Positions 4 through 38,370 of a DNA stretch of 64,000 bases are shown in pieces. Under the pieces are notes generated by a model. The model saw nothing but the letters and a program-made list of their open reading frames with translations, did not search any database and was not told where the DNA came from. Position numbers and translations under genes: made by a program. The first letter of the stretch is position 1. Each line of letters starts with the position of its first letter. The stretch is from contig JAFASN010000028.1 in the NCBI GenBank assembly GCA_019244415.1, positions 1 through 64,000 of the forward strand, written 5' to 3'. This stretch comes from Verrucomicrobiota bacterium. Its GTDB lineage: Bacteria; Verrucomicrobiota; Verrucomicrobiia; Chthoniobacterales; UBA10450.

Positions 4-1749
4 ATGAGCGGTGATCGCCGCCGCTGCACCATGGACGACCCACGCGTGGTGCAGGCGCTGGAATGGATGGTGCGCGTTTACGATTCGATCGGCGGCGCGG
101 GCAAAGTACTGGCATTCCAGGGCACGACCGAATCCGGCCAGCGCGCCGTTCCGCCGGGGGAGCTGGATCCGTTCGCGCAAGGTAAAGTGGCGATGAAGAT
201 CGACGGCTACTGGACCTTCCCGGAGGTACTGGCGCAGTTCGGCGAAAATGTGAATTACGCGCTTGCCGTCCCGCCGTTGCCGGCGCGTGAAGCGGCATCA
301 GGCAAGCGCGGCTTCAGCTGGGTGAGCGGCTGGTGTTACGCAATCCCATCCACGGCGCGGCACAAAGAAGCAGCGTGGGAATTGATCAAGTACATGTGCA
401 GCCAGCGCGCGCGGGAAATCATCGGCGAGAACGAGCGGCTGCGCCTCGAGAGCATGGGCCATGTTTATGTGCCGACGCAAAATGCAAACCGGCACATCAA
501 CGAGTGGCTTTACCAGAAGTACATAGCGTCGAATCCGGCGATCAGCGCGAAAATACGCGATGGCACAAAGTTATTGAACGACTTGCTCGAGACTTCGCCG
601 ATTCGGCCAGTCACGCCCGTTGGTCAGTTGCTTTTTAATGAACAACGCCGCGCGACCGATCAGGCGCTATTCCATAAGGCAACGCCACAAGCTGCGCTCG
701 ACGAAAGTACGCGCGTTGTGCAGCGCGCGCTCGATCACGTGCTGAGTCCTCCGCGCGGAATGGTGGTGCGGTGGAAATATCTGATCGGCGCGTACCTGGC
801 GCTGCTCGTGGCTAGTGCAACGCTAGTCGTTTCTCGTGCTCGTGCTCCTGATCGAACCGGCGAGCAGGAGCACGAGTCAATGCTGCGACGTGAATGGCTC
901 GCCGGCTGGTTTTTCGCGTCGCCGTGGCTGATCGGCTTCGTCGTCTTTATCGGCGGCCCGATTCTCTTTTCCGTCGTCGTTAGTTTTTGCGATTACGACA
1001 TTCTCAACCCGGCGCGCTTCGTCGGTTTCGCGAACTACCGCTGGATGTTTACTCACGACGCGCAGTTCTGGAAAGCGCTTGGTAACACCTGCTACATGAT
1101 CATCGGCATTCCGGTCGGTATGGCGCTGAGCCTTGGCATTGCCTTGTTGCTCAACCAGGAAATCCGCGGCATCGCGGTCTGGCGCACGATCTTTTATTTA
1201 CCGTCGATCGTCCCCCTTGTCGCCTCCAGCATTCTGTGGATTTGGGTTTTTAATCCGCAGATCGGTCTGCTGAACAACGTACTCAGCGCTTTCGGCATTC
1301 ACGGCCCGAACTGGCTCCAGGACGAACACACCAGCAAACCGGCGCTCATCCTGATGGGGCTTTGGAGCGCGGGCGGCGGCATGATCATCTGGCTGGCGGG
1401 GCTGAAAGGAATCAACGCGGCGTACTATGAAGTCGCCGCGCTCGATGGCGCGAACGTGTGGCAGCAATTTCGCTCGATCACCCTCCCGCTGCTTACGCCA
1501 TACATTTTCTTCAACCTGATCATGGGGCTAATCGCCACACTGCAAATCTTCACGCAAGCCTTCATCATGACGCAGGGCGGCCCGATCGATTCCACCCTGT
1601 TTTACGCGTACCACCTGTTCAATCAGGCGTTCCGTTTCCTGAACATGGGTTACGCCAGTGCGCTCGGCTGGCTGCTCTTCGTCGTGGTGTTTGCTTTGAC
1701 GTTGCTGCAACTGCGGCTGGCGCGCAGGTGGGTGCATTACGAGGAGTAG
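4..1749 (+). CDS. ABC sugar transporter: solute-binding domain fused to MalF/UgpA-type permease (5' partial)
   Basis: The frame is already open at the window edge, so the N-terminus is missing. Residues 1-250 look like the C-terminal lobe of an extracellular sugar-binding protein (GKVAMKIDGYWTFPEV, then an aromatic-rich WVSGWCYAIP stretch and WELIKYM). One membrane helix follows (about 257-272), then a short linker. From residue 293 (MLRREWLAGWFF) there is a complete permease of about 289 residues with six predicted helices. It carries the EAA-loop signature EVAALDGANVW...ITLPLLTP that contacts the ATPase. Known of the family: sugar import by an ABC importer. The second permease and the ATPase are not found downstream. 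An internal ATG at 880 has AGGAG nine bases upstream, so the permease may also be made as a separate protein. The domain calls are firm; the substrate is unknown. Confidence 0.85.
   Translation: MSGDRRRCTMDDPRVVQALEWMVRVYDSIGGAGKVLAFQGTTESGQRAVPPGELDPFAQGKVAMKIDGYWTFPEVLAQFGENVNYALAVPPLPAREAASGKRGFSWVSGWCYAIPSTARHKEAAWELIKYMCSQRAREIIGENERLRLESMGHVYVPTQNANRHINEWLYQKYIASNPAISAKIRDGTKLLNDLLETSPIRPVTPVGQLLFNEQRRATDQALFHKATPQAALDESTRVVQRALDHVLSPPRGMVVRWKYLIGAYLALLVASATLVVSRARAPDRTGEQEHESMLRREWLAGWFFASPWLIGFVVFIGGPILFSVVVSFCDYDILNPARFVGFANYRWMFTHDAQFWKALGNTCYMIIGIPVGMALSLGIALLLNQEIRGIAVWRTIFYLPSIVPLVASSILWIWVFNPQIGLLNNVLSAFGIHGPNWLQDEHTSKPALILMGLWSAGGGMIIWLAGLKGINAAYYEVAALDGANVWQQFRSITLPLLTPYIFFNLIMGLIATLQIFTQAFIMTQGGPIDSTLFYAYHLFNQAFRFLNMGYASALGWLLFVVVFALTLLQLRLARRWVHYEE
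839..876 (+). promoter_or_regulatory. 12-bp inverted repeat in the fusion linker covering an internal ribosome-binding site
   Basis: CTCGTGCTCCTG (839-850) is repeated as its exact reverse complement CAGGAGCACGAG (865-876) with a 14-base loop. The right arm contains the AGGAG that would serve the internal ATG at 880. If it folds in mRNA, the hairpin would hide that site until ribosomes translating the binding-protein part open it. The function is inferred. Confidence 0.5.
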
Positions 1750-36099: not shown

Positions 36100-36203
36100 T
36101 AGGGGCAGCTAAACCGGCAAGGCTGGTGAATTAATGTGCATTCGGCAATGAAGGAAACACTGCACCTCCATCGAACAGGACGAGCAAGGTGGCGATAGCG
36201 CGT

Positions 36204-36295
36204 GTCACCCCGAGCGAAGTCGAGGGATCGGGTGGCGGGACGCGCCGGTAACTTCTGCGGGATTCTTCGACTGCGCTGCGCTTCGCTCAGAATGA
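36204..36295. repeat. 92-bp palindromic REP-like element, copy 2
   Basis: The ends GTCACCCCGAGCGAAGTCGA and CTGCGCTTCGCTCAGAATGA are inverted relatives, with the same size and layout as 1749-1841. Confidence 0.8.
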
Positions 36296-36331: not shown

Positions 36332-36385
36332 TGAGCACGAGTGCGAGTATGAGCACGAGCACGAGTACGAGTACGAGTACGAGGG
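36332..36385. repeat. Hexamer tandem repeat CGAGTA/CGAGCA, about 9 units
   Basis: Nine six-base units vary as TGAGCA, CGAGTG, CGAGTA, CGAGCA and so on, ending with three exact CGAGTA units. It sits 70-125 bp before the transporter start at 36458. Confidence 0.85.
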
Positions 36386-37719: not shown

Positions 37720-38319
37720 ATGTTTACCGGGCTCATCGAAGAAACCGGCCAGGTACTCTGGATTCGCGCGACCGAGCAAGGTACGCAATTGCAGATCGCC
37801 GCGCCGGGTATGTCGCGTTCAGCACATACCGGCGAAAGCATCGCGGTGAATGGCTGCTGCCTGACGGTCAGCGCGCATCGGCGGGAATATCTCACGTTCG
37901 ATCTGCTCGGCGAAACAGTTGCGCGCACGAACCTTGGCGGGCTGCGCCGCGAAAACGTCGTTAATCTCGAGCGCGCGCTCGCCGCTGAGGCGCGCCTCGG
38001 CGGACATTTTGTGCAAGGTCACGTGGACTGTGCGGCCGCGATTATTGGCTTCGATGAAACGCCACAGGGTTTCCGCCTCGAGATCGCTCTGCCACAGGAG
38101 TACGCACGCTACATCGCCGAAAAAGGCTCCGTCGCGGTAAACGGCATCAGCCTTACTGTTGCCCAGGTAAATCCTGCGAGTTTCGTCTGCTGGATCATCC
38201 CGCATACGCGCAATGTCACGAACTTGAAGCACGCGAAGGCCGGCGATTTGTTGAATCTCGAGTTCGATATTTTGGCTAAGTACGTGGAACGGCTGCTGCG
38301 CTGTAGCGGCGGTCTGTGA
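37720..38319 (+). CDS. ribE: Riboflavin synthase alpha subunit
   Basis: 199 residues from the ATG at 37720 (MFTGLIEETGQVLW), the invariant family start; the frame extends further upstream within the previous gene. Two homologous lumazine-binding halves are visible. The first has HTGESIAVNGCCLTV and ARLGGHFVQGHVDC; the second has EKGSVAVNGISLTVAQ and IPHTRNVTNL. The enzyme dismutates two 6,7-dimethyl-8-ribityllumazine molecules into riboflavin, the last step of flavin synthesis. The genes for the other steps are not nearby. The final codons (CSGGL) and the stop are read out of a palindromic repeat (38301-38370), so the natural C-terminus has been replaced. No FMN riboswitch is seen. Confidence 0.93.
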   Translation: MFTGLIEETGQVLWIRATEQGTQLQIAAPGMSRSAHTGESIAVNGCCLTVSAHRREYLTFDLLGETVARTNLGGLRRENVVNLERALAAEARLGGHFVQGHVDCAAAIIGFDETPQGFRLEIALPQEYARYIAEKGSVAVNGISLTVAQVNPASFVCWIIPHTRNVTNLKHAKAGDLLNLEFDILAKYVERLLRCSGGL

Positions 38320-38370
38320 CCGCCGTGTTTCGGAGCTACAACAATCGGCGGTCGTAGACCGCCGCTACAG
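38301..38370. repeat. CTGTAG...CTACAG palindromic element, 70 bp, at the ribE stop
   Basis: CTGTAGCGGCGGTCTGTGAC and GGTCGTAGACCGCCGCTACAG are inverted copies around a short centre. The left arm encodes the last codons and the TGA stop of riboflavin synthase. Confidence 0.8.

Follow-up and report, generated by a model that had tools for sequence, protein, structure and literature searches.

A sugar-importer permease with a built-in binding protein, conserved in Verrucomicrobiota, and a palindromic element that most likely lies in its linker

Results and Discussion

Binding protein and permease share one reading frame

The gene that opens the 64,000-nucleotide stretch of Verrucomicrobiota DNA analyzed here (the window) joins a solute-binding protein to a permease in a fusion that is conserved among soil Verrucomicrobiota and across the phylum. 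It likely encodes a tethered importer of the CUT1 type, the linker of which most likely tolerates an in-frame copy of a dispersed palindrome and is unlikely to be a device for making extra permease. Positions 1 to 1749 of the forward strand form a single open frame (582 codons) in which Pfam domains were found at both ends, as anticipated by the first-pass annotation, which had read a binding protein, a membrane helix and a permease in one frame. The frame begins within the C-terminal half of a solute-binding domain of the MalE-type fold (1–735, forward; SBP_bac_8/SBP_bac_1, residues 12–136) and continues through a predicted membrane helix that would return the chain to the cytoplasm (778–834, forward; helix 2 of the fusion, residues 260–278, hydropathy 2.0). 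A probably flexible cytoplasmic linker, RARAPDRTGEQEHES, is translated from the palindrome (835–879, forward) and is followed by a permease domain of the UgpA/MalF type (880–1746, forward; PF00528, BPD_transp_1, residues 381–577). The permease matched UgpA (NF007852, 3e-27) and MalF (NF008232, 3e-19), both below the cut-offs of the respective models. Its translation contains an EAA-type loop, EVAALDGANVWQQFRSITLP (1429–1488, forward), which we take to be the motif expected to contact a MalK-type ATPase.

Contig C60 begins with the window, and the contig edge truncates the fusion gene at its 5′ end. A search with a full-length relative located the 164 N-terminal codons at an edge of another contig, C41, with about 70 codons missing in the gap between the two. 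Codon 4 had been taken for the start of the gene, and the binding protein for a single lobe; neither holds, because the gene begins on C41 and the binding domain is whole.

In-frame fusions were found in eight genomes of the order, comprising seven full-length copies (G002, G003, G007, G009, G012, G033, and G061; 839–870 codons) and the truncated copy of the window genome (G000). The copy in G008 runs off the end of its contig, and the one in G019 is frameshifted. The latter gene (locus L134) is broken by frameshifts in a draft genome, either through real decay or through an error of assembly. The fusion is also present in 14 further genomes across the phylum, in open frames of 834 to 991 codons, and a second, independent collection yielded 14 fusion loci, 12 of them in genomes labeled as Verrucomicrobiota-type and one each under the labels Omnitrophota and bacterium only. 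Comparison of the window copy with that of G009 gave dN/dS values of 0.17/1.70 in the binding part and 0.11/1.54 in the permease, or about 0.1 in both halves, and both are under purifying selection. The window genome is a draft with a contig break inside this very gene, and a stop codon between two genes might have been lost through assembly or sequencing error; the chance of this is negligible, as the same fusion occurs in more than 20 independent genomes. In-frame copies in the order and the phylum exclude sequencing error as the source of the fusion, and no relative was found with separate genes and an intervening stop codon, the outcome that the first-pass annotation had named as pointing to such an error. 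The conserved frame, the selection on both halves and the lack of split genes among relatives support one of its two proposals, a single tethered importer.

Structure, partners, and class of the importer

Structure prediction for the full-length relative G009 with 29 sequences gave an AlphaFold model with pLDDT 80 and pTM 0.74, which was used in place of an earlier model from 8 sequences (pLDDT 38). The model places an anchor helix at residues 3 to 19, the binding domain up to about residue 500, and a helix at 503 to 527, followed by the linker and the permease helices; the linker is its weakest part, with residues 541 to 558 below pLDDT 50. A cytoplasmic linker is consistent with charges and hydropathy. 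In Foldseek, proteins that bind mannobiose, maltose, and other oligosaccharides matched the binding domain (TM-score 0.78 by target), and the G009 protein matched PF01547, a sugar-type solute-binding domain, at 7e-26. The best matches of the permease were UgpA, GlcT, and MalF, outside the sequence family of amino-acid/betaine importers.

Directly downstream of the fusion, relatives encode a MalG/UgpE-like permease of about 540 to 590 residues (UgpE match, 2.3e-28). The remark that no second permease follows was accurate locally and did not extend to the genome, in which the orthologue lies on contig C118. Since this orthologue keeps the same downstream neighbors as in relatives, the fusion and the second permease appear to have been split in the window genome. 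The second permease (L036:9436–11046 and orthologues) is extended behind its first helix by about 230 residues, a segment without a Pfam match. The OB_MalK domain was matched once in each of five of the six genomes examined (G000, G009, G019, G033, and G061) and was not found in the sixth, G012; in G000 it is encoded elsewhere.

A sugar-type binding domain, a MalF/UgpA-type permease with an EAA-type loop, and a MalG/UgpE-type second permease together mark the system as CUT1, and by sequence the fusion is a MalF/UgpA-type importer, putatively for sugars, with its binding protein between permease helices 1 and 2. One chain would thus supply both the binding protein and the first permease of the importer, running from an N-terminal anchor helix through a periplasmic MalE-type domain, a return helix, and a short flexible cytoplasmic linker to a six-helix UgpA/MalF-type core; from the permease's view, the binding protein would sit in the first periplasmic loop. 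Its partners would be the elongated MalG-type permease (the next gene in relatives, on C118 in the window genome) and, probably, the MalK-type ATPase encoded at another place in the genome. Being tethered, the binding domain may hold a captured sugar beside the channel.

The system resembles MalFGK2 and UgpABCE in its binding-protein fold, its MalF/UgpA- and MalG/UgpE-type permeases, and its EAA-type loop, and a match to a MalK-type ATPase is present in the genome. It differs from them in that the binding protein lies inside the permease chain, between the first two helices, the second permease has about 230 additional residues, and the ATPase gene is located elsewhere. Covalent joining of binding and transmembrane domains, such that the binding site stays beside the channel, is described for GlnPQ (PMC8025302) and OpuA (PMC11065425), and the fusion likewise has both domains in one chain. 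However, GlnPQ and OpuA are Gram-positive importers of the amino-acid and glycine-betaine families, whereas the fusion belongs to a sugar family in Verrucomicrobiota, differs from them in topology, and comes with a second, distinct permease chain. A sugar importer that contains its own binding protein and is conserved throughout this phylum would extend an architecture hitherto treated in importers of amino acids and betaine. The literature searched, with few subscription papers among it, held no account of such a sugar-type fusion or of its combination with a palindromic linker.

A palindrome in the linker

The linker contains a perfect 12-bp inverted repeat, its left arm at 839–850 and its right arm at 865–876 (both forward), precisely as annotated earlier. 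Perfect inverted repeats of at least 11 bp with loops of up to 40 occur twice in the 64 kb, the linker's included, and about once in each Markov-random version, and the repeat is not remarkable by window-wide count alone. Within the coding constraint it stands out more clearly: synonymous-codon shuffles of the window linker average a 5.7-bp inverted repeat (p about 0.003 for the observed 12 bp), and the RNA fold of the hairpin has a z-score of −3.05. The longest perfect inverted repeat was adopted as the measure because linker folding energies against synonymous shuffles were weak (p 0.03–0.66). By this measure, five of the six linkers tested from the window's bacterial family exceeded their shuffles (G000, G003, G002, G007, and G012; p 0.003–0.01), G009 did not clearly do so (p 0.13), and the two linkers tested from outside the family, G033 and G061, did not. 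An Rfam search of positions 600 to 2000 gave no credible match.

Stem-loops after binding-protein genes in cellulolytic Clostridia set stoichiometry, with more binding protein than permease made (PMC9045158), and the linker hairpin might by analogy act as a partial transcription terminator. Such a role is very improbable, as the hairpin lacks a T-rich tail, a terminator scan was silent on it, and a message ending there would have no stop codon. The reading as an intrinsic terminator was rejected on the missing T-rich tract after the stem.

A dispersed element of the bacterial family

Search patterns seeded from the arms of the window's linker matched other palindromes in the window genome and its family, and reversed control patterns matched almost none. 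A covariance model (R1) was built from 12 aligned intergenic copies only; with only seven base pairs, it acts largely as a sequence profile. R1 matched the window at 817–886 (no strand assigned; E 3.9e-8 in 300 kb, 4.2e-7 genome-wide) and the linkers of six further family members, strongly in G002 (2.6e-16), G007 (4.5e-11), and G003 (1.6e-9) and more weakly in G012 (1.5e-5), G009, and G008 (6e-5 each). There was no R1 match in the linkers of G019, G033, G061, or the wider phylum set. The linker repeat thus recurs in relatives, which had been proposed as a check, within the window's family (seven linkers) and not beyond it. Where the element is missing, the linker is short in G061, G019, and LaPlata and longer, though still repeat-free, in others. 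In the tree, G019, which lacks the element, stands beside G012, which has it, implying one gain and one loss or two gains.

Genome-wide, the element was detected in 16 of 19 genomes of the window's bacterial family and in none of 10 from other families. The window genome has 33 strand matches, in roughly half as many places, and nearly all of about 30 copies inspected lie between genes, in any orientation, or in doubtful frames. The match of R1 to the linkers is partly circular, as the seeds came from the window-linker pattern; independent support comes only from the parts outside the 9-bp arms, from the linkers of other species, and from the restriction to one family. Linkers and intergenic copies share centre motifs, among them CTAATCGAAA and AATCGATTACGA. 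The element is of low complexity and has no known mobility machinery, and simple-repeat expansion inside the linker could mimic insertion. The linker repeat might accordingly be a local, hexamer-like expansion unrelated to the intergenic copies, a charged flexible linker being useful in itself: its arms are made of CTCGTG-like units, several such arrays exist in the genome, and the intergenic arms show a strong three-base periodicity. We regard this as unlikely, as the arms stay complementary beyond synonymous shuffles although their sequence varies by species, and the centre motifs recur in intergenic copies. The linker hairpin is most likely an in-frame copy of the dispersed, mostly intergenic palindrome of the window's bacterial family, going by the sequence matches.

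In the window's family, the hairpin-forming repeat would have come into the linker in frame, where it would be read as RARA...EQEHE and would not end transcription; it may be tolerated because the linker is flexible. This is reminiscent of Rickettsia palindromic elements (RPEs), dispersed palindromes that occur in frame within protein genes and are read as extra peptide (PMC10969869), and the analogy makes tolerance of the kind seen in Rickettsia genes the best reading of the linker. As with RPEs, copies are dispersed in the genome, and one is in frame in a gene with repeat-free relatives. The element of the window's family differs in being about 90 nt long and mostly intergenic, with one host gene family found; among the roughly 30 copies inspected, insertion did not recur in many unrelated genes, and the likeness to RPEs is one of kind. 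A more specific scenario, in which the palindromes of this Chthoniobacterales-related family are a protein-coding kind outside Rickettsia that moved in frame into a conserved importer gene, had its complementary arms kept by selection, and has only recently given rise to a concealed second start in the window's species, seems rather doubtful. REP repeats, of the GTAG and CGTC types, are likewise small, dispersed, intergenic palindromes and are known from Verrucomicrobiota such as Opitutus terrae (PMC3733652), but the present element has long, periodic arms and no recognised tag. Repeat-bearing and repeat-free linkers together offer a case for testing how palindromic DNA enters protein.

The internal start

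An in-frame ATG at 880–882 (forward) is a possible start, and AGGAG at 866–870, within the right arm of the hairpin, precedes it by 9 nt; both lie where the first-pass annotation had placed them. That annotation also suggested a coupling device in which translating ribosomes open the hairpin, expose AGGAG, and allow ATG 880 to yield extra copies of a 289-residue permease. The position of AGGAG, the hairpin z-score of −3.05, and the scarcity of such sites (in the long open frames of the window, 6 of 271 internal ATGs in frame have one) speak for coupling. Even so, those 6 of 271 make chance sufficient for the site at 880, and the start is unique to the window copy: in the other linkers, of order and phylum relatives alike, no ATG, GTG, or TTG near the permease has a ribosome-binding site; the TTG of the G012 linker lacks such a site, and the ATG of G009 lies far upstream. 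The hairpin is missing from linkers outside the family, the repeat lies mostly between unrelated genes, and the excess normally wanted is of binding proteins, not permeases (PMC9045158). With the start confined to one copy and the hairpin most likely a dispersed repeat absent from most linkers, the coupling device is unsupported and improbable, and the overlap of the hairpin with the ribosome-binding site is most likely accidental.

Other inverted repeats

Intergenic hairpins of the window's bacterial family, at loci L165–L196 of G000, G007, and G012, have arms with T at every third base (0.76 versus 0.09 and 0.14 when the phase is set to give the most T). They fold with z-scores as low as −10, and between genera their complementarity is kept while the sequence differs. 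Within the window, a 20-bp inverted repeat with 90% complementarity lies just after the stop of the fusion gene (1758–1822), and its type, TCGACTTCGCT, recurs near 36200–36290. An intergenic array of CTCGTA/CTCGTG hexamers occupies 36345–36385, and a perfect 15-bp inverted repeat with a 40-nt loop is present at 38301–38370.
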